Shown in pieces: positions 227 through 32,960 of a stretch of DNA of 32,960 nt. The stretch spans positions 1 through 32,960 of the forward strand of contig CAIQJJ010000649.1 in assembly GCA_903872065.1 (NCBI GenBank), read 5' to 3'. How positions within the stretch are numbered: the first letter of the stretch is position 1; the number at the start of each line of letters is the position of its first letter. The translations under genes and the position numbers were made by a program. The notes beneath the pieces were generated by a model. The model saw only the letters and a program-made list of their open reading frames with translations, did not search any database and was not told the origin of the DNA. This stretch comes from an uncultured Anaerolineales bacterium (GTDB lineage: Bacteria > Chloroflexota > Anaerolineae > Anaerolineales > UBA4823).

Positions 227-3200
227 TTACAGTTCGCGCCGCCGCCAGGCACGCCCCGCCGCCAGGCTCAAGCCCAGCAGCAGAGCCGCCGCCGCCAGCC
301 ACAGCCAAGACTGCGACGAATGAGCCGTGAAGTCGGTCAGCGTGATGGCCGTAGGGCCGAAACTAACCAGATAGTCTTCTGTCTCGCCATTGAGCAGCAG
401 TCCTGCCGAATCCATCTGAACGAGCGGAATCGCCGCAGCGCGCACGCGGATAAAGACATTGCTGTTAGCCACATAGCCCGCCGGGACCGACACTGTCACC
501 GATTCACTCACAGGACTGCCCGTGAGCCTGGAGCCTGAGTAGAAAGCGTCAAAGCTGCCATTGTTGTCCCAGTCAATCCATACTCCGTAGTACACGCGCA
601 CACTGCTTGCACTGCCATTGAGGATGACTGTCAAAGTGCTGCTGCCGCCAGCAACCCAGCCGGTGGAAGCAAAGGCCAGGCTGTCTTCGTCCAGTCCATC
701 CCCCGAGGCGGTGGCCGAGGCCTGTCCATCAGCCTCTACATCCACAACCGTACCTAGCCAGACTGCCTGGATGCCGCCAGCCGCGTCCGGGATATTATCC
801 CCGCCATCGGGGAAGATGGCATTGGCTGCGCCAGAGGCGGCAAAGGTGGTGGGATAGGTGGCCGGCAAATCACCCAGGTCAAAGCGGGTAGTGTAGAAAC
901 CGAAGTCATACGAGGTATCGGTTTCACCTTTCAACACTGTGGCGATCTCACTGGCGCCATCCGAGTCGCCGTCAACTTGATCGTTATTGCCAGCAGCGGT
1001 CGCATTTTCGGGCGAGGCGGCAACCCCTGCCGGAGTCGCCACACCAATTGTGTAGATCACATCTGCGACGCCGGTACCCGAGGTAGAGAAGTTCTCGTCC
1101 AAGAGCAGGTTGCCGAATTCGTAAGCGCCGTCCGCCTGGCTCAGGGTGTTAAGCGCGACCATCTCTCCATTGGGATAGACAGCGGTTAGAACAACCAACA
1201 CACCGCGAATCCCCGGCTCACCGGCATCCTGCACCCCATCATTATCCAGATCAAGCCAGACGAAGTCGCCCACAGCGGCCGGGTACAGGAAGTAGCCGAA
1301 GTCGCCTGTACTGTCAGTCGCCCCAGCCGCCACTGCGACGCTGTAAGGATCGACCTGGCTGTTGTTGTCGCTGCCATCAGCCGCCCCATCGCTGTGCCAG
1401 TAACCGTTGAGGATGCCCCAGTCATCGGTGACATCCACGCGATAGGTATCGTCGGGCAGGTTTACAAATTGGTAAGCTCCATTGGCATCAGTGGTCGTCG
1501 CGCCGACCCTGTTGCCATTGCTATCGTACAACACAACCGTCACGCCGGCAAAGCGTCCGGTCTCAGCGCCCAGGGTTCCATCCATATCGGTATCTTCCCA
1601 CAGCGTGCCAGCGATCGTGTTCGCCGCCGCGGCGGGTTCGTAACCGAAGTCCTGGCTGAGGTTGACTGCCCCAGCCGCCAGGGTCACAGTGGAACGGTCG
1701 GCGACGCCGCCATCCGGGTCTACTGTGTTGGTCAAGCCGCCCGGCAAAGTCGCCGTGTCTACCCGCACCGAGTAGGTCGCGGCGGACAGGTTGCCGAAGA
1801 AGTAACTGCCATTGTTATTCGTAACCGTGGTTTGCAGCAGCGCGCCCGAGGTATTGTTATACAGGCGCACCGTCACCCCTGCCAGACCCTCGCCGGTATC
1901 CGCTATACCGTCGCCATCGCGGTCGAGGAAGATCGTGTCGCCGATCAGGCCTTCCGTTGAAGTTTGCCCGGCGGGAGTATAGCCAAAGTCCTGGAAGGTA
2001 TTGCTGCTCCCAGCGATCGTGAGCGTGTTTTGATTGGTGCAGGCGCCGCCGCATACCTGGCCGGCGTCGGCGGTGTTGTTCGGGCGGCTGCTCTGCGCCA
2101 GCGCGCCCAAGACATGAGCTACATCATTGACCCAGACCGTGTAAGTCCCATTCGGCAGGCCAGGGAAGCTGTACTGCCCGGCGCTATCCGTCACAGTCGT
2201 CGCAATGACCTTGCCAGCCGCGTTTTTCAACGCCACTGTCACCCCCGCAATGCCAGGTTCGCCTGCGCCGAAGCTGCCATTGCCATTGACGTCCACGAAG
2301 ACCTGGTTGCCGATAGTGTACCCGGCGCTGGGCTTGTAGCCAAAGTCGGCGTTCACATAGACATCGCCTGGGGCCAACAAGATCGGCGTCGTCGTTTGAT
2401 TGTCGCAAACCACGCAGGTCGCGCCCGGTTCATCGGGATCGCCCGTTGAAACATAGCCGCCCGGCGCTGCGCCGCTGTTGACGCGCACCACATACGCGCC
2501 CGCCGGCAGAGCATCGAAATAGTACATCCCTGCCGCATCGGTCGTCGTCGAGGCTTCAACCACGTCGTCCGTCGTCCCAAAGAGGCCATCCGGCCCAGCC
2601 GTCAGCAGATCCACTGCGACGCCGCCCAGGCCAGCTTCGCCGGGATCCTGCACGCCGTCGCCATCCGCGTCAATCCAGATGCGGTCGCCGATTGCGCCCA
2701 GGCCATCATTGCCAGTGACATCCAATATGGCCGACCAGTTGTAGCCGAAGTCCACATCCAAATTCTTCTCCCCCACCGCCAATGTCAAGTCTGCCAAATG
2801 CGGCAGGCCGCCATCCAGATCATAAGTCGGGTTCTCGGCCAGGCCAGCCGGCAGCGATGAGTCAATCACCGCCACTGTATACGCGCCGGATTTGACATTG
2901 GTAAAGAGGTAATGTCCCTCATTGTCCGTAACCGTCGTCAGGCAGTCCACAGTTGAGACGCAAACGCCATCTTGCAGTTCCACGATGACATTCGGAATGC
3001 CTGGTTCGCCAGCATCCTGCACCCCGTCGCCATTTTCATCCAACCAGACATAGTCGCCAAAGGTCGCCGGGCGAACAAAGCCAAAGTCATAGGTATCGTC
3101 GGTCTGCCCCTTGAGAACTGTCGCCGCCTGGCCATCCGGGTCGTCCGAGTCGACGGACGCGTCTCCTCCAACGTGCAAGAAGGTGGACGCGTAACCAGAC

Positions 3201-6200
3201 GGAGGGATCACGCTGAGCGAGAAGGTCGGCTCATCCGCGACGGCGCCAACGCCATCAAAGTTCTCATCGAGCAGCAAATTGCCAAAGCGGTAAAGGCCAT
3301 TCAGATCGGTGGTTGTTGCCAGGACAGTAGCGCTGCCATCCAGCCAATCAATCGTCAGGCGAACCTCAAAGCCGCTCAAAGGAAGCTCGCCGGCATCCTG
3401 TATGCCATCGCTGTCGGCGTCTTCCCAGACGAAGTCGCCCACAGCGGCCGGGTACAGGAAGTAGCCGAAGTCGGCAGTTGTGTTAGTCTCCCCACCCGCC
3501 AGCGCGACGGTGTAAGGATCGAGCTGGCTGTTGTTGTCGCTGTCAGCGGCCGGCCCATCGCTGTGCCAGTAACCGTTGAGGAGTTCCCAGTCATCGGTAA
3601 CGTCCACGCGATATTCACCGTCGGGCAGGTTGGCGAATTGGTAATCCCCATTGCCATCGGTCATAGTCGCGCCAACAATATTGCCCTTGCTGTCGTACAA
3701 CACGACCGTCACACCGCCAAAGCGCAAGGTCTCAGCGCCCAGGGTTCCATCCGTGTCGGTATCTTCCCACAGCGTGCCAGAGAGCGTATTCGCCACGGTG
3801 GGTTGGTAACCGAAGTCCTGGTCGAGATCAACTGCGCCAGCCGCCAGGGTCACAATCGAGCGATTGACAATACCGCCATCCGGGTCTACTGTGTTGGTCA
3901 CGCCGGCCGGCAAAGTCGCCGCGTCCACCCGCACCGAGTAGGTCGCGGCGGACAGGTTGCCGAAGAAGTAGCGTCCATTCTCATCGGTAACCGTGGTTTG
4001 CAGCAGGGCGCCCGTGGTATTGTTGTACAGGCGCACTACCACTCCTTCCAAACCCTCGCCGGGGAAGAAAAATCCGTCGCCATCGCGATCCAGGAAGATC
4101 GTATCGCCGATCAGGCCTTCCGTTGAAGTTTGCCCGGCGGGAGTATAACCAAAGTCCTGGAAGAGATTGTCGCTCCCAGCGATCGTCAGCGTATTCTGAT
4201 TGCTGCAGGCGCCGCCGCATGCCTGGCCATTGTCGGCGGCGTTATTCGGGCGGCTGCTCTGCGCCAGCGATCCCAGGACATTGGCCACATCATTGACCCA
4301 GACCGTGTAGTCGCCCGGCAGGACATAGAAGGAATACCACCCATTAATCGTTATAGCCGTCGCAATGACCTTGCCAGCCGCGTTTTTCAACGCCACCGTC
4401 ACCCCTGGAATGCCAAGGTCGCCGCCATCCAGGCTGCCATTGCCGTTGAGATCCGCAAAGATCACATCACCGATGCCGTATCCAACATCCGGTATGTAGC
4501 CAAAGTCGGCGTTCAAGTACACATCGCCCGGGGCCAGCACGATGGGAGTGGTTGTCTGCCCGTCGCAGTCAGCGCAAGGGCCACCCTCATCGGGATCGCC
4601 CGTTTGGGTATAAGTCCCCAGGGTGGATTCATCCACCGCGACCACGTACGCGCCGGCCGCCAGGCCATCGAAGATGTAAAAGCCAGCCGCGTCGGTCGTC
4701 GTCGAGGCGGCGGTGACATCGTCCGCCGTCCCAAAGAGGCCGTCTGCGCCAGCCGTCAGCAGATTGACCGTAACGCCGCCCAGGCCGGCTTCGCCGGCGC
4801 CCTGCAGACCGTCGGCGCCCATATCAATCCAGAGGCGGTCGCCGATCGCTCCCGTCCCCGTCCCAGCGGTGACATCGGAGGTCGGCGCCCAGTTATAGCC
4901 GAAATCGGCCAGCAGCATTTCCTGGTTGGGGCGCAGCGTGACCGCCGCTCTGCCGGCGCTGCCCGTCCCATCATAATCATAGGTCGGGGACAGACCAGCC
5001 GCCAGGCCGCCCACAGAGACCGTGTAGTCGCCGGCCGGGACATTCTTGAAGAGATAGCGTCCATCCAGGTCGGTAACAGTAGTGCGGTTGACGGCACTGC
5101 CATAAGCGTCCGTCCCGCTCAAGGTCACGGTGAGGTTGGGGATGCCAGTCTCGCCAACATCCTGCACGCCGTCGCCATCTTCATCGAACCAGATATAATC
5201 GCCGAGCGCTGCGGGGAAAGGATCGGGGAAGCGATAGTCTTCCACCTCGCCGTTGGTCGCCAGGCCGCTGGGCTGCGCCATGCCTAACGTCGTGCTGCGG
5301 TAGAGGCGGAAACGGGCGTATAAGTACATCTCATTGCCGTCCGGGTTGTTCGCCAGGACGCTGCGCGGGATGTCAAAGGTCAGCGTGTGAGTGCCGGCCG
5401 CCAGGGCTTCATCCAAGAGGATGCGCTCGCCGCCGTCGTTCATATCGCCGTCGCGGTTCCAGTCAAACCAGGCGCTCAGGTAGCAAGGATTGGCCGCCGT
5501 GCAGGTGGCGCCGCCAACCACCACCTGGACACTGCCGCCGCCCTCGCCCACAGTCCAGGGCGCATTGAGAATGACGACGCCATCTTCATCATCACTGCCC
5601 GCCGCATCATCCCCGCTGGCGGCGGCGGTTTCGTAACCGCCCACCAGGACGCTGGCCGCCTGCGGCCCGCTCATTTCGGTGTCCGGAGGGAGCGCGCCCA
5701 GGTAAACCTGTCCCGAAGAAACCAGGACATGCTTGGCGCCATCGTTGGCGGCGGCGGTATTCTTATACGAATCCGGCAGATCGCCAAAGTCTACATTGGA
5801 GATAAAGCCAAAGTCGCGCCGGGCGGGGGAGGGGTCTGCGCCGAAGTCAACCAACGGGCTGGCCACGGCGTCAAAGAGTGTTACCCCATCATAGACGGTG
5901 GTCGTCGTCTGCTGGGCGCCGATCAGAGATGGCGCGCCGGCGTCGAGCGAAACCACATAGACCTCCCCTAACAGACCGCTAAAGCTGTAGTCGCCAGCGG
6001 CATCCGTCGTAGTCGAAGCGACCAGGTGAACATTGCCGGGGGTGCAGCTTCCTCCCTCGCACCACCACAGGTAGACCGGCGCATCGGCATAGCGCTCCAA
6101 CTCGGTCGCGCCGATCTCACCCACGCCCCCACTCTGACCTTGAGGATCGTCAGGATCGTACCAGACCGTGCCGATGATTTGATTCGGCCCGCTCAAGTCG

Positions 6201-9200
6201 TAACGATACGCCAGGTCGGCGTTCAGATCACAGTCTGTACACGCGCCGCCGCCAATGGATTCGACCACGCCGCCATTGATCGTGATGGCTGCAACCACAT
6301 TGTCAGCCGCACCTCCATCTCCATCCCAGGAGGCAGCCACACCAGCGGGGAAGTCAGCATCAAAAGCATTCACCTTGACAAAGTAAAGGCCGTCTGCCAG
6401 GCCGCTAAAGGTATAGAACCCGTTTTCATCCGTCTCTGTGGTCGCAAGGATCGTGCAGGCGTAATCACTACATAACCACACCGTCACGTAGGGAACGCCG
6501 ACTTCTCCCGCGCTGAGCAGGTGATCGTCGTCCAGGTCAATCCAAACCAGGTCGCCGATCATGCCGCCATCCGGCTTGAAGCCGAAGTCAGCGCCCATGT
6601 AATTCGTCCCGTTGTAGAAAAGTCTCCCATCGCGCCCATCGCAGATCGTGCCGGCCGTCAGTCCAGCGCAAGGCTCGCCGTCAGCGCTTGGGTCGGCGGT
6701 CAGGGTTGTGTTGGCTGGCGGCGTGACCACCACGGCGTAATTGCCCGGCTGCAGACCGGTGAACTGATAGTAACCGGCCTCGCCGGTTACAGGGTCATTG
6801 GCCGTTGTCGTCGAATCCACCGCCGCGCCGACCAGAGATTCGGTCGGATCAAGCCACCCATTGCCATTGGCGTCTGTATAGCGGTATAGTTCAACATTAA
6901 CGCCGTTGATGCCAGGTTCAGTCGTCTGCTGAACGCCGTCGCCGTTGTTATCATAGTAAACCCGATCGCCAATCGCAGCCGGCGGCGCAAAGCCAAAATC
7001 CGCTGTCAGGTCACTTGGATCGGCGTCCGTCAAAGTCACGGGGATGTAAACCAGGTCTCCAGAGATTGTCCCAGTGGAGGGATAGTAAGCGCCGCCATAA
7101 ATATCCTTCGGCAGGAGGGCGGCGTCAACCGTTTTATCCACCACCACGCGATACACGCCCACCGGCAAACCGGTAAACAGGTATTTGCCGTCTGCGTCAG
7201 TGACCTGGGCCGTGACGGTGACATAGTTCCCGTCGCCGTCCCAATCCACCTGCAAATACACCGTCACGCCGGCAACGCCGGCCTCAGTCGCTTCTTGCGT
7301 CCCGTTCCCATTGACATCCTTAAAGACCGTATCACCAATGCTGCCCGATCCGACCGGCTTATAGCCGAAATCCTTATCCTCATAAGTCATATCGAGCAGG
7401 AAGGTGCTCTGATTGTCACGCGTGCTGTCGGGATCATACGACTGCACCACGCCCGCTGGCAGGCTGCCAGATGCCACCTGAACTGTGTAGTAAGCCCGCG
7501 GGTAACCGGTGAAATTGTAAATCCCATCCGAACCGGTTATCGGCGACTCAATCTGCCTCCCATCTGGGCCCAGCAAGCGTACCGTAACGCCAGGAATAGG
7601 CTCATCCGGGCCATTCATCGCCCCATTGCCATCCCAATCGAAGAAGATCTGGTTGCCAATGTTGTACACGCCGGCAGGGATATTATAGCCAAAGCTCACA
7701 TTGGTCAGGGCGGTATTATCGTCCAGATCGCCAACAAAGCCTGGGGTGACAGCGCCTGGAAGGTCTTCCAGATCATCCGTGCCGCTGGTCTGGGCAGGAT
7801 CATTCGACCGGCTGTCGCAAGTGGTGCAAACGCCGTTCTGGTTGACATCGGCAGTCTGACTGCCGGCAATCACAGAGGAACGCACCACCACGTAATAATA
7901 TCCCTGCCGCAGGTTGGTAAACGAGTAAGCGCCGTTTACATCTGTTGAAACCGTCTGTAAATACTGCCAGGAGCCACCCTCCTGAACACAGGTTCTGTTA
8001 TTTGCTACACCACTGATAGGCGCAAAAGTAGTCGCATTCAAACAAGCATACAGATCAACCGGAATATTGCGAATACCGGCATCGCCGGCATCCATCCCAG
8101 TCTGCCCGGCCCCCGTTCCTGGCTGAGTCCAAAGCGCCGTCTGCCAGCCATTGGTATTGTTGTCGTCGAACACTACGCCAGACAAGGTGCGCGTCTGAGC
8201 ATTCACCCCAATCGTCACATTGGCAGTATTAAATACGGGGGAATTGGCCGGCAGACCATTAGCAAATTTGCTGTTGGTGCTGGTAGCAGTGTTGATAGTT
8301 TCAGGGGAGGCGCCAGCCTGCGTGGCGCGCATGTAGACATGGATGTAGCGCGTCTGGCCAGGGTAGATCGGCCCAACATTATCCCAAGTCAAGGAGCCAA
8401 TGTCCGACGAAGACACCGATGGATTGGCTGAGACAAAATCGAAGTAATCATCGTTGAAGGTATCAACCAGCGGCACCGGGTTGAGTGTGCCAGAATCGCT
8501 GGCGCAAGGCTGATCGGTGGTAATGATCACGCCAAACCCATCCAAATCCAGGTCGCCGCGAGTGCCGCCGCCGCCTTTGCGGCCAACCAACTGAAATTCC
8601 AACAGGCTATCTAACAAACTGATAACGCCAGGATCACCAGCAAAGTCGCTCCATTCCCAGGTTTTGCCGACGCCCTTCACTGTCTCCGGATTGATCGTTT
8701 CGACAATTGTATATTCCGTACCAGTGCCGCCGCCAAAAGCCACCTGGGTTGCAGGAGCAGTAACAGTACCATTACCATCATAGGTATAAAGAGCAGCGCC
8801 AACAGGAAGGTTATTGTAATACACTTGAACTTCAAATTTATCGCCAGCCAAAAGATTGACACGCTCATGCAAGTTGGCGATAAACTGCACACCGGTGATC
8901 TTTCCGCCCATATTCCCCAGGTTATAGCCACTGATCCCCACATAGTTCGTACTATTGGTCATATCCGTATAGGAGTATTTTTCGTCCGGAGCGCCTACCG
9001 CATTAGCCGTACTCGACCAACGGGAATTGGCAGCTCCACCAGGCGGAGTCATAGTTGTGTCCGGATAAGCTTCTTTAGCCCATAGCTTATATGAACACGT
9101 GGCTGAACCCGCTGCACCCGAACCGGGCAGCTTATTGGTCAAGGCAATCAGGTAATCAATCGTATCGCCAACTACAATCGGATTGGTATTGACCACCGAT

Positions 9201-11401
9201 TTCTTGATTTCCAACGCCGGCGCAAAGCCAAAATCGCTGGGTTCAGAGCCATCCGCGGCGTCGCCGTAGGTACCCACCACTTCAATCTGCTTGTAAGCGG
9301 TCGCCGTGGTCGGGCCATAACCGGTGGGGATATCGCCATCGGTCGTATCCACCATAATCAGATAGCGCGCCGCGCCCGTGGGCGGCAGGTTGGTGAAGGT
9401 GTAATTGTCGGGCGTGAGGGCGCTGGTTTCCACCGTGTCGTAAATAAAATCGTTCGCATCCTCGCAATCACCGTCGCCGTTGGCGTCCCAACACAAGGAG
9501 ACCGTCACACCGGTTGTATCAGTATCCGCTCCATCGCTGATAACCGCTTCATCGCCTTCCTGCACGCCATTGCCCAACACGCCGGTCGTCCCCCCATTAT
9601 CACGCCAGACATGCCCAATAATAGTACCGCTGCCTTTGATCAGAGTGGTATAGGTGTCTTCGGAAAAACATGGGCCAGCGCCCAATTTAAGGCAGGCGGT
9701 GTTGTCAATGATCACCAAAGGATAAGCCAACGGGACAATGGCCTGGAAAGTAACCTGGCCGGTCGTCGCCAGGCCGGTCTTTGGGCTGACAATGCCTTCA
9801 TCCAACTGCCATTGGATGTTCGTCACCAGCGAGGCCGGTACCGGTTCATCCGTAGACCAGGTGAGGCCGTTATCGGTGGAGAACAAACGCGTCGCATTCA
9901 CAGTCGGCGAGGAATAATTGGTCATCGCCACCGTGCTGCTGGCGCTGCCGGCAACATAGACCAATCCGTCGGGAATAGTTTCGTAGTAGACCAGCGGCAT
10001 GCCCAGAGAGGGGGCGCCAACTGTAACCACCATCGTGTCCTCTGCGGCGTCCACATCCGGCAGGGTAAAGGTCAACTTATAATCGATCGTCCCGCCCAGG
10101 CTAACTTTTTTGCCCGTCACGGGATCCACGGCCGTGGTGGCGGTCTTGTCCAGCGTCATGCTGCTTTCTCGGCTTTGCAGCGGCGGAATGCCGGCGCCGA
10201 AGTCGGCGTTGAACTTCTCATTGTCGTAGCCGGAGGCGACCTCTTGATAGGGCGTCAACCCGGCGGTGCAGGCGCCGTTCAAGGCGACGTATTCGTAATA
10301 CACCAACCCCACCGCGCCGGTGTTGTTTTCGGGGATGTTCTCGAAGTACATCTGATCCACAAAGGGGATCAACTTCTCGGTGCCGTCATTGAGCTTGACC
10401 ACCACCAGTCCGTAGGTGCGCACCAAACGGAAGCAGCCGGGGTCATAAGTGGTGGCGTCGCCGATCGGCTGCACCCAGGCATTGCGGTCGGGGACATAGT
10501 TGTAGTTGTTATCGAAGCCGGCCCCCACATTGCCCAGGTCATACCAGATGCCCTGGCTGGTCACAGTCTCGCCAGGGTAAGCCGTGGTGCCGGTGCCGTT
10601 GGGCGTCCAGGTCTCCCAACCCAAAACATCCTGGATGGCCAGTTTGTATTGATCTGGCACTTTGTTATCGCCATTCGGCCAGATTTTGTTGGCCATGGCC
10701 GAAATCTCATTGCGCATGGTCACCGGGCGCCAGTAATACGATTCGGGGGTGGAATGGGTTTCCGAGGTGGCCCACATAAAGTACGACAGCCAGAGATCGT
10801 CTTCCGGCTTGATGCCGCCGGTCACATTCTGCCAGCCTCCGGCAATCTTAGCCTTGCGCGGGTAGGAAACCAACCAGTATTCGGTGCGGCATTCGCCGGC
10901 CGCCAAAGTGCCAATGAAGCGCGAGGCGTCCACCTCATCCGAGACGGAGCCGGATTCATGCTCCAGGGCAAAAAAGCGCGTCGGGTCGCCGAAATCCACC
11001 TCCGTCACACCGGCCAGGCTAAATGCCGCCGGGTCCTGCATCGGATAGGTACCGGGGGTGACATCGCCCGCCTCAAGCAGCGCGCCATCCCCATCCGCAT
11101 CCAGGTTGCCAATATAGGCCCAGACATCCTTTAATTCCCCGCCCGAGGTGTTGCAAAACTTGGCGCCCAGGGTGGCCGCCGAAGGGCCATACGAGGAGGG
11201 CGAGAGGACGTTCGAGTCGACGATCAGGTTATAGGCTGTGATCGGCTCGATGGTAATCCCCCCCGCGGCGCTGGAGATATCATACGTCGTTGGCAGGTCA
11301 TAACGCGCCGGGGCGGCGCGTCCCACCTGGCTAAAGGTAAGGGAGAAAAGAAAAACAACGATCAACACACTGAAGAGGATGGTTCTGGACTTCTTGGTCA
11401 T
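227..11401 (-). CDS. Giant secreted multidomain surface protein (SdrD/Cna-B-like repeats, GEVED-type domains, DUF11-like regions)
   Basis: 3724-aa ORF. N-terminal signal peptide (MTKKSRTILFSVLIVVFLFSLTFSQVGRAAPA); AAGGAG 5 nt before ATG. About 19 repeats of the form [IV]GDxxWxDxDGDGxQDxGExGxxGVxVxL...DxxGxYxFxxLxxGxYxVxV...DFGY. Two 'DxGDLPxxY...GE[VT]EDY' domains. C-terminal hydrophobic helix plus RRREL. Confidence 0.96.
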   Translation of the reverse strand: MTKKSRTILFSVLIVVFLFSLTFSQVGRAAPARYDLPTTYDISSAAGGITIEPITAYNLIVDSNVLSPSSYGPSAATLGAKFCNTSGGELKDVWAYIGNLDADGDGALLEAGDVTPGTYPMQDPAAFSLAGVTEVDFGDPTRFFALEHESGSVSDEVDASRFIGTLAAGECRTEYWLVSYPRKAKIAGGWQNVTGGIKPEDDLWLSYFMWATSETHSTPESYYWRPVTMRNEISAMANKIWPNGDNKVPDQYKLAIQDVLGWETWTPNGTGTTAYPGETVTSQGIWYDLGNVGAGFDNNYNYVPDRNAWVQPIGDATTYDPGCFRLVRTYGLVVVKLNDGTEKLIPFVDQMYFENIPENNTGAVGLVYYEYVALNGACTAGLTPYQEVASGYDNEKFNADFGAGIPPLQSRESSMTLDKTATTAVDPVTGKKVSLGGTIDYKLTFTLPDVDAAEDTMVVTVGAPSLGMPLVYYETIPDGLVYVAGSASSTVAMTNYSSPTVNATRLFSTDNGLTWSTDEPVPASLVTNIQWQLDEGIVSPKTGLATTGQVTFQAIVPLAYPLVIIDNTACLKLGAGPCFSEDTYTTLIKGSGTIIGHVWRDNGGTTGVLGNGVQEGDEAVISDGADTDTTGVTVSLCWDANGDGDCEDANDFIYDTVETSALTPDNYTFTNLPPTGAARYLIMVDTTDGDIPTGYGPTTATAYKQIEVVGTYGDAADGSEPSDFGFAPALEIKKSVVNTNPIVVGDTIDYLIALTNKLPGSGAAGSATCSYKLWAKEAYPDTTMTPPGGAANSRWSSTANAVGAPDEKYSYTDMTNSTNYVGISGYNLGNMGGKITGVQFIANLHERVNLLAGDKFEVQVYYNNLPVGAALYTYDGNGTVTAPATQVAFGGGTGTEYTIVETINPETVKGVGKTWEWSDFAGDPGVISLLDSLLEFQLVGRKGGGGTRGDLDLDGFGVIITTDQPCASDSGTLNPVPLVDTFNDDYFDFVSANPSVSSSDIGSLTWDNVGPIYPGQTRYIHVYMRATQAGASPETINTATSTNSKFANGLPANSPVFNTANVTIGVNAQTRTLSGVVFDDNNTNGWQTALWTQPGTGAGQTGMDAGDAGIRNIPVDLYACLNATTFAPISGVANNRTCVQEGGSWQYLQTVSTDVNGAYSFTNLRQGYYYVVVRSSVIAGSQTADVNQNGVCTTCDSRSNDPAQTSGTDDLEDLPGAVTPGFVGDLDDNTALTNVSFGYNIPAGVYNIGNQIFFDWDGNGAMNGPDEPIPGVTVRLLGPDGRQIESPITGSDGIYNFTGYPRAYYTVQVASGSLPAGVVQSYDPDSTRDNQSTFLLDMTYEDKDFGYKPVGSGSIGDTVFKDVNGNGTQEATEAGVAGVTVYLQVDWDGDGNYVTVTAQVTDADGKYLFTGLPVGVYRVVVDKTVDAALLPKDIYGGAYYPSTGTISGDLVYIPVTLTDADPSDLTADFGFAPPAAIGDRVYYDNNGDGVQQTTEPGINGVNVELYRYTDANGNGWLDPTESLVGAAVDSTTTANDPVTGEAGYYQFTGLQPGNYAVVVTPPANTTLTADPSADGEPCAGLTAGTICDGRDGRLFYNGTNYMGADFGFKPDGGMIGDLVWIDLDDDHLLSAGEVGVPYVTVWLCSDYACTILATTETDENGFYTFSGLADGLYFVKVNAFDADFPAGVAASWDGDGGAADNVVAAITINGGVVESIGGGACTDCDLNADLAYRYDLSGPNQIIGTVWYDPDDPQGQSGGVGEIGATELERYADAPVYLWWCEGGSCTPGNVHLVASTTTDAAGDYSFSGLLGEVYVVSLDAGAPSLIGAQQTTTTVYDGVTLFDAVASPLVDFGADPSPARRDFGFISNVDFGDLPDSYKNTAAANDGAKHVLVSSGQVYLGALPPDTEMSGPQAASVLVGGYETAAASGDDAAGSDDEDGVVILNAPWTVGEGGGSVQVVVGGATCTAANPCYLSAWFDWNRDGDMNDGGERILLDEALAAGTHTLTFDIPRSVLANNPDGNEMYLYARFRLYRSTTLGMAQPSGLATNGEVEDYRFPDPFPAALGDYIWFDEDGDGVQDVGETGIPNLTVTLSGTDAYGSAVNRTTVTDLDGRYLFKNVPAGDYTVSVGGLAAGLSPTYDYDGTGSAGRAAVTLRPNQEMLLADFGYNWAPTSDVTAGTGTGAIGDRLWIDMGADGLQGAGEAGLGGVTVNLLTAGADGLFGTADDVTAASTTTDAAGFYIFDGLAAGAYVVAVDESTLGTYTQTGDPDEGGPCADCDGQTTTPIVLAPGDVYLNADFGYIPDVGYGIGDVIFADLNGNGSLDGGDLGIPGVTVALKNAAGKVIATAITINGWYSFYVLPGDYTVWVNDVANVLGSLAQSSRPNNAADNGQACGGACSNQNTLTIAGSDNLFQDFGYTPAGQTSTEGLIGDTIFLDRDGDGFFFPGEGLEGVVVRLYNNTTGALLQTTVTDENGRYFFGNLSAATYSVRVDAATLPAGVTNTVDPDGGIVNRSIVTLAAGAVDLDQDFGYQPTVANTLSGTLWEDTDTDGTLGAETLRFGGVTVVLYDSKGNIVGATMTDGNGDYQFANLPDGEYRVDVTDDWELLNGYWHSDGPAADSDNNSQLDPYTVALAGGETNTTADFGYFLYPAAVGDFVWEDADSDGIQDAGELPLSGFEVRLTIDWLDGSATVLATTTDLNGLYRFGNLLLDENFDGVGAVADEPTFSLSVIPPSGYASTFLHVGGDASVDSDDPDGQAATVLKGQTDDTYDFGFVRPATFGDYVWLDENGDGVQDAGEPGIPNVIVELQDGVCVSTVDCLTTVTDNEGHYLFTNVKSGAYTVAVIDSSLPAGLAENPTYDLDGGLPHLADLTLAVGEKNLDVDFGYNWSAILDVTGNDGLGAIGDRIWIDADGDGVQDPGEAGLGGVAVDLLTAGPDGLFGTTDDVVEASTTTDAAGMYYFDALPAGAYVVRVNSGAAPGGYVSTGDPDEPGATCVVCDNQTTTPILLAPGDVYVNADFGYKPSAGYTIGNQVFVDVNGNGSFGAGEPGIAGVTVALKNAAGKVIATTVTDSAGQYSFPGLPNGTYTVWVNDVAHVLGALAQSSRPNNTADAGQVCGGACTNQNTLTIAGSSNTFQDFGYTPAGQTSTEGLIGDTIFLDRDGDGIADTGEGLAGVTVRLYNNTSGALLQTTVTNNNGSYFFGNLSAATYSVRVDTATLPGGLTNTVDPDGGVADRSTVTLAAGAVNLSQDFGYEPAAAANTIAGTLWEDTDMDGTLGAETGRFAGVTVVLYDSNGNRVGATTTDANGAYQFVNLPDDTYRVDVTDDWGILNGYWHSDGAADGSDNNSQVDPYSVAVAAGATDSTGDFGYFLYPAAVGDFVWLDLDNDGVQDAGEPGIRGVLVVLTAVYPNGEMVALNTLSQADGAYEFGNLLLDENFSTSGTGVADVIYTIGVATPAGVAASPENATAAGNNDQVDGDSDGASEIATVLKGETDTSYDFGFYTTRFDLGDLPATYPTTFAASGAANAIFPDGGDNIPDAAGGIQAVWLGTVVDVEADGQASATASGDGLDEDSLAFASTGWVAGGSSTLTVILNGSASSVRVYYGVWIDWDNNGSFDAFYSGSRLTGSPVSESVTVSVPAGYVANSNVFIRVRAAAIPLVQMDSAGLLLNGETEDYLVSFGPTAITLTDFTAHSSQSWLWLAAAALLLGLSLAAGRAWRRREL
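893..3073 (-). repeat. Copy B of the six-domain SdrD-like cassette (tandem duplication within the giant CDS)
   Basis: Domain order GDYVW / GAIGDRIW / YTIGNQVF / LIGDTIF / TIAGTLW / AAVGDFVW matches copy A one-for-one, at a nucleotide offset of about 2166-2169. Confidence 0.93.
3074..5215 (-). repeat. Copy A of the six-domain SdrD-like cassette (tandem duplication within the giant CDS)
   Basis: Domain order GDYIW / GAIGDRLW / YGIGDVIF / LIGDTIF / TLSGTLW / AAVGDFVW. Long identical runs with copy B, e.g. 3425-3473 vs 1256-1304 (49 nt) and 4107-4147 vs 1941-1981 (41 nt). Confidence 0.93.
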
Positions 11402-11599: not shown

Positions 11600-13501
11600 T
11601 TAACCCTTGGGCTGCTTCAAGCGCCGTGCATCCCCTTCGCGCACTGTGACCCCAATCGCATCCAGGTGTTCGAGCAAAGCCAATACATAGCGCCGGCTGG
11701 TGTTGAAATGATCGCGCGCCTCGGCCGCGGTAATCGTCCCATGCGCCTTGATCCAGGCGCGCACCGCGCCCGTCATGGCCTCGTAATCCGCCTGGCGAAA
11801 GACGACTTCAGGGGAAACCAACGCCAGTTGGCCCAGATCCAGCAAGGCATTGAACAGGTCTTCCCCCACTTCGGCCTGGCAGTCCTTCACAGTCGGCGGG
11901 GCGGCCGGGGCGGCGGCAAAGCGCGCCAGCAAAGCCTCCACCCTTTTTTGTTGGGCAGCGTTGAAGCGAATTGCATGGCCGGCGCGGCGCACAAAGGCCC
12001 CGCTCTCTTCCACCGCGCCCTCGCCGGCCAGGCGGCGCAGGGCGGCGTTAAAGACGCGCGGCGCAAGCTTCACGCGGCTTTTCAATTCCTCGCGCCCAAT
12101 CCCCAGGCGCAAAGGGTAAGCCTGGTGATAAGCTTCGATCTCGTCCAACAAACGCTCCGAGAGTTGATTCCAATGCGCCAGGCTGATCACCAGGTCTGGC
12201 GGGCGGGGCGCGTCGCCGGACTCGAGGCCAATGATCTGCCCGCTTTCCCACAGTTCAGCCAGAGCCTGCTGCGCGGCGGCCGCTTCCAGGCTGGAGCGGG
12301 CGATGACCTCTTGCAGAGGCGCCGCCCCCAGGCTTTGCAGGGCCTGCGCCAGCACCTCGGCCGGCGTCCCCTGCAAGAGCGCCTCCAGGCGGGCCAGCAC
12401 GGCCTGGTCAAAACGCTTGTGGCGGCCCGGCGGGTTGACATCCATTACTACCCCGCCGCCCAGGGTTTCGCCGGGCGAGGGACGGCGCAGAATATAGCGG
12501 TCGCCGCGCCGCGCCGTCACCGCATGGCTCAATTCCAGTTGCAGCCAGCCCGATTCGCCCGGAATAAGCTGCTCGCTGCCCAAGAGGCGCACGCGGGCGG
12601 TCGTCTCGGCCGCGCCGGTGAAAAACTTGACCTCATCACTGTGCGCCAATGGATGAGCGGCGTCTGCCAACAGGCGAAAACGCACATCCAGGCGGCGGGT
12701 GGGTTCATAATCGCCGGGGTGCACTACCACCTCGCCGCGCGCCACCTGATCCACATCCAGGCCGGCAATATTCACCGCCGTGCGCCCGCCGGGCAAAGCC
12801 GCCTCTTCTTTGCGCTTGTGCGTCTGCAAGCCGCGCACCCGCCCGCGCAAGGCAGAGGGCAAAATTTCGACCTCATCGCCCACCTTCAAGCGCCCATCGA
12901 GCAACGTGCCGGTGACAATGGTGCCAAAGCCAGCAATGGTAAAGACCCGATCCACCGGCAGGCGCGGCCGTCCCAGGTCCGGGCGCGGCGGGCGTTCGGC
13001 CAGGCAGTCGGCCAGGGCTTTTTTCAAGGCCGGGATGCCAGTCCTGGCGCGGGCCGAGACGCGCACCATCGGCGCGTTCTCCAACACAGTGCCGGCAAAA
13101 GCCTGCGCCAGGTCATCTTCCACCAGAGTGAGCCAGTCGGCGTCCTCGATCAAATCCGTCTTCGTCAATGCCACCACACCCCCCTGGATTTGGAGCAGGT
13201 CCAGGATGGCCAGGTGTTCGCGGGTCTGAGGCATCACCCCTTCATCCGCGGCCACCACAAACAAAACCGCGTCAATCCCCCCCACGCCCGCCAACATATT
13301 CTCAATGAAATCACGATGCCCTGGCACGTCCACCACCCCCACTTCGCCCACGCCCTCCAGGGTCAACCAGGCAAAGCCCAGGTCAATCGTCATCTCGCGC
13401 TCGCGCTCTTCTTTCAGCCGGTCAGGATGCGTCCCCGTCAGCGCCTGCACCAGGGTAGACTTGCCATGATCCACATGCCCAGCCGTACCAATCACACGCA
13501 T
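11600..13501 (-). CDS. selB: Selenocysteine-specific translation elongation factor SelB
   Basis: MRVIGTAGHVDHGKSTLVQALTGTHPDRLKEEREREMTIDLGFAW, DVPGHRDFI, TKTDL GTPase motifs; C-terminal winged-helix repeats ending ARDHFNTSRRYVLALLEHLDAIGVTVREGDARRL, typical of SelB. Confidence 0.95.
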   Translation of the reverse strand: MRVIGTAGHVDHGKSTLVQALTGTHPDRLKEEREREMTIDLGFAWLTLEGVGEVGVVDVPGHRDFIENMLAGVGGIDAVLFVVAADEGVMPQTREHLAILDLLQIQGGVVALTKTDLIEDADWLTLVEDDLAQAFAGTVLENAPMVRVSARARTGIPALKKALADCLAERPPRPDLGRPRLPVDRVFTIAGFGTIVTGTLLDGRLKVGDEVEILPSALRGRVRGLQTHKRKEEAALPGGRTAVNIAGLDVDQVARGEVVVHPGDYEPTRRLDVRFRLLADAAHPLAHSDEVKFFTGAAETTARVRLLGSEQLIPGESGWLQLELSHAVTARRGDRYILRRPSPGETLGGGVVMDVNPPGRHKRFDQAVLARLEALLQGTPAEVLAQALQSLGAAPLQEVIARSSLEAAAAQQALAELWESGQIIGLESGDAPRPPDLVISLAHWNQLSERLLDEIEAYHQAYPLRLGIGREELKSRVKLAPRVFNAALRRLAGEGAVEESGAFVRRAGHAIRFNAAQQKRVEALLARFAAAPAAPPTVKDCQAEVGEDLFNALLDLGQLALVSPEVVFRQADYEAMTGAVRAWIKAHGTITAAEARDHFNTSRRYVLALLEHLDAIGVTVREGDARRLKQPKG

Positions 13502-29935: not shown

Positions 29936-30029
29936 GCGCGCTGAGCTTGTCGAAGCGTGGCTTGTCGAAGCGTGGCTTGTCGAAGCGTGGCTTGTCGAAG
30001 CGTGGCTTGTCGAAGCGTGGCTTGTCGAA
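29936..30029. repeat. Tandem direct repeat, 15-bp unit CTTGTCGAAGCGTGG x5 plus a partial sixth (CTTGTCGAA)
   Basis: Perfect copies at 29946-29960, 29961-29975, 29976-29990, 29991-30005 and 30006-30020, partial at 30021-30029; preceded by the dispersed-repeat arm GGCGCGCTGAG. Confidence 0.97.
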
Positions 30030-30060
30030 ATGCTATCCTTTGCCTGTGAGGACTCCCCCT

Positions 30061-32960
30061 GTGTCTACGATTGATCCACTGACCGGGGTTTGCGCGCGCA
30101 CCCTTCTGGGGGAACGCCTGCAAGAGGAAGTAGGACGTTCGTCCCGTTACCATCTCCATTTTGCGCTGTTTATGCTCGATCTGGATCATTTTAAAAGCGT
30201 CAATGACGCTTTCGGCCACCGCCGCGGCGATCAAGTGTTGATCGAAGTCGCCCAACGGCTGCGGCGGGTGGTGCGCGAAATGGATGAAGTATACCGCTAT
30301 GGGGGAGATGAATTTGTGATCTTGCTGCCTCATACAGACCTGGAACAGGCGGCGGTAGTTGCTGCGCGCCTGCTGCGCGAGGTGGGGAATATCCCCATTG
30401 CCGGCGATCCTCCGATCAATGTCAGCCTGAGCATCGGGGTAGCCATCTTTCCCGACGACGCCGCTACCGCTGAGGTGCTTTTCGAGGTGGCCGATCAGCG
30501 GCATTACCAGGCCAAGCAGCAAGGGCGCGGGCGCGCGGTTTTGCGCGATCAGGCGCGGCCAGAAAGCCCCTTTTTAACTGCGCCTTCACGCTTGATCGAG
30601 CGGGACGATGCCGTTCGCGCCTTAGAACAATTTCTGACCGACCTTCCAACCAAAAAGCGCGGCCTGCTGCAAATTAGCGGCGCGGCTGGCATGGGTCGTT
30701 CGCGCCTGCTTGACGAAACGCGCAAATCGGCCCGCCTGCGCGGCTATGGCATTTTTACCTTCCAAGGGAACCCGGCGCTGAAATCGCGTTGGATGGGGGC
30801 GCTGATCGAAGCGCAGCGCCATTGGGAAAACTGGCCCGTCATCCTGACGCAAAAAGAAGCCCTGTCTGAGGCCTTGCATGATTGGCTGCTGAGTAAAGGC
30901 CGCCAGGGGCTTGTCATCACGATCGATGCCGCGCAAGAAATTGACCGGCATTCCCTGGATACGATCGGCTATCTGCTGCGTTCGGCGCAGTTCGGACAAT
31001 TGGCCGCCGTTTACACCTGGACCGAAGAGCGCATTGGATCAAAGGGAAGTGAGAGGTCGTTCCCAAGCAAAGAGCGTTCCAATACCGTAGCGCATTTGTG
31101 GAGAGATTTTCCATTGAAAAGCACGATCAAGCTGTCGCCGCTCAGTGCAGGGGGTGTGCAAGTCTGGCTGCGCCACAGTTTGAAATGGGAAGCGCCCGCT
31201 GAATTTACAAGCTGGCTGCACAAGGAAACCGGCGGACACCCCGCCATGATTCACAGAGGGCTGCTCTGGCTGATTAACCAGAACATTTTGCACAATGAGA
31301 CAGAAGAAGCAGCCTCAAGCGCCGCGCTGTCTGTGTCCAGCGAACCTGGCTGGAAACTGAACAGCAGCTATCCTGAAATTCACCTCGCCCAGCGTCTGCC
31401 GACCAGGGCCGTCGCGCCGACGAATCTGCCGGCCCACCTGCCAACCTTTATCGGTCGTGAAAATGAGATTGAATACCTGAAACAATCGCTGTGCGAACAA
31501 CGCCTGACAACGGTAGTTGGCCCTGGGGGATTAGGAAAAACCAGCCTGGCGCGGCAGGCGGCGGCGGAATGCCTGGAGGAAAATAATGAGTATGGCGAGG
31601 ATCAGTACTACTTTGTAGATGGGGTGTTTTTCATCCCCCTGACAACTTTAACCGCCCCACAAAATACCAACGGAGACATCATCTTGACCGCCGTCGCGGA
31701 CGCGATCGGCATAGAACACAGCCTCACCCAAAACATGCGCGAGCAAATGTTCGAACGGCTGTGCAAGATGAATACCCTGGTGGTGCTGGATAACTTCGAA
31801 CATCTGTTGGAAGAAGCTCCCGTGTTAAGTGAGATCATTGAATGCGCCCCTCGGGTGCATTTTCTGACCACCTCGCGCGAGCCGCTCAATCTTCCCGAAG
31901 AAAGCCTGGTGGAATTGGGGGGGCTGCCGTTTCCTGAAGAAAACTCCACAGAAGAAAGTTCCGCCTACAGCGCCGTGCAGTTATTTTTGCACATCGCTCG
32001 CCAGATTACCCCCGACTTCAACCCTGGAGGAGAGGAGACGGAGGCGATGGTGCGCATCTGTCAATTGGTAGAAGGGATGCCGCTTGGCATCGAGCTGGCC
32101 GCTTCAACCGTTTCGATGTTTACCTGCCAACAAATTGTGGCCGAGGTGGAACAAAATTTGACCTTCTTATCCAGCACAAGTCCAGAACTCTCCCTGCGCC
32201 ATCGCAGTATGCGAGCCATATTTGACTCGTTCTGGGGTCTGTTATCGGATTGGGAACGCGGAGTGTTGGCGGGGCTTTCTGTTTTTCGCGGTGGATTCAC
32301 CTTCAACGCTGCCCAGGCAGTCGCCGGCGCGTCGCCCTTTTTTATTGACGCCCTGGCCAAGAAACTCTTCTTGCACCGCTTGCCTCAGCGACGCTACACC
32401 ATGCACAGCCTGCTCAACCAATACGCGGCGGAGAAACTGCAAGCGCAACCCGAGGCGGCGAGCAAGAGCCAAAAACAGCATTGCGATTACTTTATCAACC
32501 TGCTGCAAACGAACGAGGCGCAGTTGCAAAACGGCCAATCGCCCGAAGTGTTCAATCGCATCGCCGTTGAGGTAGATAACTTGCGCGCCGCGTGGGAATG
32601 GCTGGCTGCCAGAGACGACCTGCAGCGCATGGAAAAAATTTTACCCGGCCTCAAAAGTTTCCTGGACAACCGCGGCTGGTTCCGTGAAATGCTCAGGATT
32701 CTTTATGCGGCCAAAGAAAAATTAATCCAGGGCTGCCAGGCTGATTTTTCTGATTCGCCGCGCACACGCTCATTGGTACGCGTATTGACCGACTTGGGTG
32801 AATCTCACTATCACCTGGGCAGTTATGCCGCCGGGCGGCAAGAACTCGAACTGGCGCTCGCTATCCTCACGCCGCTCGATCTGCCGGCCGAAACGGCGAC
32901 GGTTATCCAGCAGCTGGCGAATATCGTCCGCTCGACCGGCGATTACGCGAGCGCTATTCA
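30061..32960 (+). CDS. GGDEF (diguanylate cyclase) - AAA-like NTPase - NB-ARC/STAND NTPase - TPR-like fusion protein (C-terminus beyond window)
   Basis: Read by eye in the frame starting GTG 30061 with no stop to the window end (966 codons). GGDEF: STIDPLTGV...LFMLDLDHFKSVNDAFGHRRGDQVL...REMDEVYRYGGDEFVILLP. Degenerate P-loop GAAGMGRSRLL. Second P-loop PTFIGRENEIEYLKQSL...TTVVGPGGLGKTSLARQAA, LVVLDNFEHLLEE, HFLTTSREPL, EGMPLGIELAA. Helical-repeat-like tail DLGESHYHLGSYAAGRQELELALAIL. GAGG lies 9 nt before the GTG. Confidence 0.92.
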   Translation, partial: MSTIDPLTGVCARTLLGERLQEEVGRSSRYHLHFALFMLDLDHFKSVNDAFGHRRGDQVLIEVAQRLRRVVREMDEVYRYGGDEFVILLPHTDLEQAAVVAARLLREVGNIPIAGDPPINVSLSIGVAIFPDDAATAEVLFEVADQRHYQAKQQGRGRAVLRDQARPESPFLTAPSRLIERDDAVRALEQFLTDLPTKKRGLLQISGAAGMGRSRLLDETRKSARLRGYGIFTFQGNPALKSRWMGALIEAQRHWENWPVILTQKEALSEALHDWLLSKGRQGLVITIDAAQEIDRHSLDTIGYLLRSAQFGQLAAVYTWTEERIGSKGSERSFPSKERSNTVAHLWRDFPLKSTIKLSPLSAGGVQVWLRHSLKWEAPAEFTSWLHKETGGHPAMIHRGLLWLINQNILHNETEEAASSAALSVSSEPGWKLNSSYPEIHLAQRLPTRAVAPTNLPAHLPTFIGRENEIEYLKQSLCEQRLTTVVGPGGLGKTSLARQAAAECLEENNEYGEDQYYFVDGVFFIPLTTLTAPQNTNGDIILTAVADAIGIEHSLTQNMREQMFERLCKMNTLVVLDNFEHLLEEAPVLSEIIECAPRVHFLTTSREPLNLPEESLVELGGLPFPEENSTEESSAYSAVQLFLHIARQITPDFNPGGEETEAMVRICQLVEGMPLGIELAASTVSMFTCQQIVAEVEQNLTFLSSTSPELSLRHRSMRAIFDSFWGLLSDWERGVLAGLSVFRGGFTFNAAQAVAGASPFFIDALAKKLFLHRLPQRRYTMHSLLNQYAAEKLQAQPEAASKSQKQHCDYFINLLQTNEAQLQNGQSPEVFNRIAVEVDNLRAAWEWLAARDDLQRMEKILPGLKSFLDNRGWFREMLRILYAAKEKLIQGCQADFSDSPRTRSLVRVLTDLGESHYHLGSYAAGRQELELALAILTPLDLPAETATVIQQLANIVRSTGDYASAI

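Follow-up and report, generated by a model that had tools for sequence, protein, structure and literature searches.

A GGDEF diguanylate cyclase domain joined to two tandem STAND-type modules and a TPR tail in Chloroflexota

Introduction

GGDEF enzymes act as dimers, as exemplified by PleD and WspR, in which an N-terminal receiver drives dimerisation of a domain with the full catalytic set and an RxxD site. Another group of messenger enzymes, the class III nucleotidyl cyclase-ATPase-TPR proteins, includes the mycobacterial cyclase-ATPase-LuxR proteins and mammalian soluble adenylyl cyclase; its members combine an N-terminal cyclase, an AAA_16 or NB-ARC ATPase (a single module by Pfam) and a TPR tail, and make cAMP or cGMP, not c-di-GMP, with a catalytic domain that belongs by sequence to a different family. 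STAND-TPR proteins such as MalT and PH0952 (PMC6468293; PDB 6mfv) have one NOD, an NBD-HD-WHD core with intact Walker A and B motifs, followed by a TPR sensor; they are closed with ADP, opened by an inducer and multimerise with ATP (PMC6468293). MalT itself acts through a DNA-binding domain and not through an enzyme. The nearest literature mention of the present combination concerns the three-component vWA-MoxR-VMAP conflict systems, where GGDEF is a rare substitute for cNMP cyclases beside an NTP-dependent switch (PMC7159879).

The gene described here shares features with these systems. It has the GGDEF catalytic residues and RxxD site of PleD and WspR, with a putative ATP switch on the C-terminal side in place of an N-terminal receiver. 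The general layout of the class III group is also present, with an N-terminal messenger cyclase, AAA_16/NB-ARC modules and a TPR tail. The core and sensor resemble those of MalT and PH0952, preceded by an extra, degenerate NOD; and, unlike the vWA-MoxR-VMAP systems, everything is encoded in a single gene, with no conserved neighbours in the contexts examined. While the parts are well known, the GGDEF-NOD1-NOD2-TPR combination appears to be undescribed: the openly accessible literature searched yielded no account of GGDEF-STAND proteins, in agreement with an earlier note on this DNA that had called the architecture little described.

Results

Gene structure and domain architecture

The window (the whole stretch of 32,960 nucleotides that was analysed) is contig C649 of a draft host genome of 7.49 Mb in 927 contigs. 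The gene occupies its 3' end, and the reading frame was correctly described in the earlier note as open from GTG 30061 to the end of the window, which is also the end of the contig.

30048-30052, + strand: ribosome-binding-like GAGGA, 8 nt 5' of the GTG start (sequence)
30061-32960, + strand: GGDEF-NOD1-NOD2-TPR coding sequence, 5' part, 966 codons; the 3' end lies on contig C152
30067-30540, + strand: GGDEF diguanylate cyclase domain, aa 3-160 (PF00990, 151 bits, aa 3-157; TIGR00254, 157 bits)
30589-31425, + strand: NOD1, degenerate AAA+/STAND-type module, aa 177-455 (AAA_16, 64 bits, aa 177-314; modelled separately)
31438-32445, + strand: NOD2, NB-ARC STAND switch with helical and winged-helix parts, aa 460-795 (NB-ARC/AAA_22/nSTAND1, aa 461-607; fold match to PH0952, 6mfv)
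32458-32958, + strand: arm and start of the TPR sensor, aa 800-966 (TPR_12, TPR_MalT; all-helical in the model)

The first 141 bp of C152 are an exact copy of the window end and are found nowhere else in the host genome, so that the two contigs appear to be adjacent in the assembly graph. Continued across this overlap to a stop codon, the frame ends at C152:826 and encodes 1194 amino acids in total, with the caveat that the full gene spans two contigs of a draft genome. The join is supported by the C152-encoded part, whose TPR repeats have homologues in the tails of relatives.

On the joined protein, GGDEF, AAA_16, NB-ARC and TPR all score above the curated Pfam cut-offs. The original proposal, a diguanylate cyclase joined to a STAND ATPase that ends in TPR repeats, is therefore borne out by Pfam as well as by family conservation (see below). 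The proposed order of GGDEF, NTPase, NB-ARC and repeats also holds, with one revision: there are two AAA+/STAND-type modules in tandem, which we named NOD1 and NOD2, and the first is degenerate, its Walker A lysine having gone, which leaves NOD2 as the one NTPase with an intact P-loop (GPGGLGKTS); this loss had escaped the earlier note. The order along the protein is GGDEF, NOD1, NOD2, TPR repeats. TPR_12 and TPR_10 matches begin at aa 945 (TPR_12, 91 bits, aa 987-1053) and the repeats run on to aa ~1140, encoded on C152; as in other STAND proteins, a C-terminal repeat sensor is thus paired with a terminal effector, here the N-terminal GGDEF. An AlphaFold2 model of the 966 window-encoded residues, built from an alignment of 27 family members, reached a mean pLDDT of 86.8 and a pTM of 0.78. 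A Foldseek search with this whole model returned GGDEF structures and PH0952 (6mfv; E = 8.9e-11, 605 columns), a STAND-TPR protein of known structure.

A small family found in Chloroflexota

The same architecture, for which a search in other genomes had been suggested, recurs in 33 further GGDEF-NOD1-NOD2 genes, giving 34 in 25 Chloroflexota genomes. We searched with profiles of NOD1 alone, without the GGDEF, at the level of the class (396 genomes), phylum (400) and order (301). Strong hits were present in at least 21 of 301 genomes of the order, at least 5 of 396 of the class and at least 4 of 400 of the phylum, these being lower bounds from a scoring of a few candidates in each genome; the 34-gene comparison includes extra copies found in the retrieved regions, and a strict peptide-pattern scan of contigs gave two loci only. 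Loci retrieved from the phylum- and order-level searches fall into two score groups. Hits at or above about 125 bits all have a GGDEF in front (23/23), and those at or below 73 bits never do (0/32), this latter group including class III cyclase-AAA_16-TPR, SARP and kinase proteins with mostly intact P-loops. The family is small, apparently undescribed and, across the class, phylum and order searched, found here only in Chloroflexota.

Because the gene lies at a contig end in a 927-contig draft, and because one relative is frameshifted (L018) and another is split by an N-run (L081), we considered an assembly chimera or a frameshifted gene; we give this hardly any credence. The GGDEF/NOD1 junction is internal to one contig, the order is the same in 34 genes of 25 genomes, and the exact 141-bp overlap leads to a contig that continues in frame as relative-like TPR repeats. 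A chimera at the GGDEF/NTPase junction, which the earlier note had named in advance as an event that could overturn its reading, is ruled out: the junction sits within a single contig and 33 other genes share it, so it is the product of neither chance nor misassembly. We also rejected a programmed frameshift at the NB-ARC/TPR border, as the apparent splits trace to an N-run in the L081 record and to a single indel in L018.

Several copies are present in some genomes, with five in G843 and two in the host. The host paralogue, on C882, is 45% identical and ends right after NOD2, without TPR, so a TPR ligand is not required for every member. Tandem pairs of GGDEF-STAND genes are found in G033 and G066. 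In two such pairs (L019:1693-8531 and L020:1830-8680) the first gene has an AGDEF signature and a fully eroded NOD1, and the products of tandem pairs possibly form a heteromer.

The GGDEF domain is predicted to be catalytic

30274-30285, + strand: RxxD product-inhibition site, R72-D75 (R72 in 26/34 members, D75 in 27/34)
30301-30315, + strand: GGDEF signature, aa 81-85 (GGDEF or AGDEF in 33/34; D83 and E84 in 34/34)

The catalytic motif, described as intact in the earlier note, is indeed complete, with D40, N48, D57 and G81-F85 all in place. The metal residues D40 and D83 are kept by all 34 members and the guanine-binding residues N48 and D57 by 33 each. This is the set seen in GGDEF domains that make c-di-GMP; D40, D83, N48 and D57 correspond to PleD D327, E370, N335 and D344, and the guanine-recognition Asp57 argues against the Hypr (cGAMP) subtype. 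The protein is therefore predicted, from its residues, to synthesise c-di-GMP. In nearly all members a possible start codon lies only a few residues from the start of the GGDEF and no sensor domain precedes the latter, meaning that control must come from the C-terminal side.

Two deviations bear on an inverse arrangement, in which a degenerate GGDEF receiver binds GTP or c-di-GMP and controls the STAND switch, the real output lying elsewhere. First, the RxxD site is missing in seven members, having gone as a block from a single clade in the 27-gene tree. Second, a 2611-aa member from G843 (L083:7155-14990; G843:C127) reads GGDEF-NOD1-NOD2-TPR followed by BTAD-AAA_16, a SARP-type regulator, and its cyclase is broken, with GEDEM for the signature and N48 and D57 gone. 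Set against these, 33 of the 34 members retain every catalytic residue, more than a receiver needs, and ordinary members show no other output domain; we judge the inverse arrangement very improbable. L083 is the only member fused to another output, so that one chain holds two STAND parts and two different outputs, and decay of the cyclase in this one case, where another output is attached, is consistent with a cyclase that serves as output in all other members.

A probably eroding P-loop in NOD1 beside a strictly kept one in NOD2

30679-30702, + strand: NOD1 Walker A, GAAGMGRS, with Arg for Lys (R213); Lys kept in 9/34 members
31519-31542, + strand: NOD2 Walker A, GPGGLGKT (K493); Lys in 33/33 aligned members; the 34th carries it on its second ORF
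31777-31791, + strand: NOD2 Walker B, LVVLD (D577); Asp in 29/33 members, Glu in 2/33

NOD2 carries both Walker motifs of a STAND nucleotide-binding domain (GPGGLGKT and LVVLD), and the GLGKT lysine that had been singled out for mutation is K493 of this module, retained in every member. Following the nucleotide-binding domain, a GLPL-like motif (GMPLGIELAA) and a winged-helix segment (MHSLLNQYA) are located where expected; Pro674 is present in 27/27 and His782 in 16/27 members, and the model has helices and strands there. Mean pairwise identity is 49% for GGDEF, 38% for NOD2, 32% for NOD1 and 22% for the arm/TPR region, the fastest divergence thus falling in the sensor, as expected of different ligands.

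These data also bear on the idea that the GGDEF is constitutive or controlled by nothing but GTP and its product, with the STAND part serving for localisation or scaffolding, for example as a TPR docking platform. The RxxD feedback site of this gene and most members would suit such an arrangement, as would the C882 paralogue without TPR and the fact that TPR domains often dock proteins. It is hard to reconcile with NOD2, whose Walker A lysine is invariant and Walker B acid nearly so at only 38% identity, a pattern that argues for nucleotide-dependent switching, and we consider the arrangement unlikely.

In NOD1 of this gene the Walker A lysine expected of a STAND is replaced by Arg (GAAGMGRSR). 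Modelled alone (pLDDT 88.6), NOD1 nonetheless has a fold that matches MuB, Cdc6/Orc, MalT and plant NLRs. Across the 34 genes the Walker A position is Lys in 9, Arg in 9, Gln in 7, Ala in 5, Val in 2 and His and Tyr in 1 each, and the contrast in P-loop lysine between NOD1 and NOD2 gives a Fisher p of 4e-11, which overstates the case since the genes are related. At least three changes between Lys and not-Lys are needed on a tree built without the Walker A columns, and every gene without the NOD1 Walker B Asp is also without the Lys (9/9). Taken together, the sequences look like a gradual erosion of the NOD1 ATP site while the NOD2 site and the cyclase are strictly maintained. As the tree is unrooted, we infer, rather than read from it, that the lysine was lost and not gained; an Arg in Walker A is also no proof that nucleotide binding has been lost. 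NOD1 would most likely be a structural coupler or autoinhibitory clamp and not a second motor, the one basis of this proposal being that the AAA+ fold is retained and the ATP site lost. The natural series of Lys, Arg, Gln, His and Ala in the NOD1 P-loop offers a way to ask what an inactive NOD does in a STAND.

A proposed switch with c-di-GMP as output

The reading we prefer, and regard as reasonably probable, is a MalT-like STAND switch with c-di-GMP synthesis as its output and NOD1 as a degenerating coupling module. The protein would be a cytoplasmic STAND-type signalling protein whose C-terminal TPR superhelix binds a ligand, probably a small molecule, peptide or protein. Binding would release the autoinhibition of NOD2, which would exchange ADP for ATP and oligomerise, gathering the N-terminal GGDEF domains so that two GTP-loaded domains could make c-di-GMP; NOD1, between cyclase and switch, would act as coupler or clamp. 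The product would feed back at the RxxD site and act on the PilZ, HD-GYP and EAL network of the host. The host genome encodes 26 GGDEF, 14 HD-GYP (HD_5), 2 EAL and 2 PilZ domains, and c-di-GMP is therefore in use there.

The path from ligand through NOD2 opening and oligomerisation to GGDEF pairing is the simplest reading, obtained by analogy, as it combines the switching described for STAND-TPR proteins (PMC6468293) with the dimer requirement of GGDEF enzymes. The geometry of face-to-face GGDEF pairing may be less straightforward. STAND oligomers are usually rings of more than two protomers, which counts against it. More tentatively, we suggest a lineage-restricted and previously undescribed design in which tandem active and pseudo NODs gate c-di-GMP, NOD1 becoming a pseudo-ATPase coupler and NOD2 being the motor. 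If the proposed switch is real, a major messenger of biofilm formation and motility would be joined in one chain to a switch of the NLR/MalT kind, with the regulator unusually placed C-terminal to the cyclase, and there would be a testable route by which Chloroflexota feed intracellular signals into c-di-GMP.

Genomic context

The earlier note had left room for a role in defence. Such a protein would be NLR- or Avs-like, sensing a phage trigger through its TPR and using c-di-GMP to switch on a toxic effector or arrest growth. Phage defence commonly employs STAND proteins that carry an enzyme at the N-terminus (PMC12931631, PMC12169576), and GGDEF does, if rarely, replace cNMP cyclases in conflict systems (PMC7159879). 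The surroundings of the family offer no support. Except between pairs of close relatives, an all-against-all BLAST of neighbours at 28 loci gave no conserved operon partner, and hence no conserved effector neighbour; nothing in the 28 contexts was recognisable as a defence or mobile gene, as judged by ORFs and homology. NOD1 matched none of 72,556 plasmids and none of 50,697 phages, matches in viral contigs cover the GGDEF part only, and PADLOC returned a weak hit to mad8 alone and no family of note. Neither the defence family nor the island context of anti-phage STANDs (Avs, bNACHT) was thus found, nor the CD-NTase and effector gene of CBASS, the cyclase being a GGDEF with no conserved neighbour. 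The many housekeeping c-di-GMP partners in the host would, moreover, make for a noisy alarm. We regard defence as distinctly improbable, and the claim is not upheld by PADLOC, plasmids, phages, viral contigs or gene contexts.

The parallel with class III cyclase-ATPase fusions drawn in the earlier note is visible in the neighbourhood itself. The gene converges with one such fusion on C152 (L006:940-4992, - strand), which has double class III cyclase domains, AAA_16 and TPR, in a layout that resembles mammalian soluble adenylyl cyclase. A family member in G207 has a class III cyclase-NB-ARC gene immediately upstream, and in G939 and G843 a gene of this type lies within a few kilobases of a member.

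Short repeats surround the gene:

29945-30029, + strand: intergenic array of a 15-bp repeat, GCTTGTCGAAGCGTG x5.7, 5' of the gene (repeat analysis)

Tandem 15-16 bp repeats with the core TTGTCGAAGC / CTGTCGAAG occur in the window at 29945-30029 and 1-66 and on C152 at 836-862, where two inverted copies follow shortly 3' of the gene stop, so that inverted copies bracket the gene. AGCTTGTCGAAGC has 218 occurrences in the host genome versus 1 for the reversed control, identifying it as a genome-wide interspersed repeat, and the 15-bp array is probably such a repeat, outside the protein system. A structured RNA in the array (fold z-score -0.39) and a promoter there (promoter-like site absent) were considered and rejected.

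Other genes were observed nearby. On C152, the gene for a 2044-aa protein (L006:4989-11123, - strand), which has a signal-like N-terminus and contains numerous repeated units, has a stop that overlaps the start of the class III cyclase gene. Within the window, an open frame of 3724 codons at 227-11401 (- strand) encodes a very large protein, and a SelB elongation factor with two SelB winged-helix domains, encoded at 11600-13501 (- strand), suggests selenocysteine use in the host genome.
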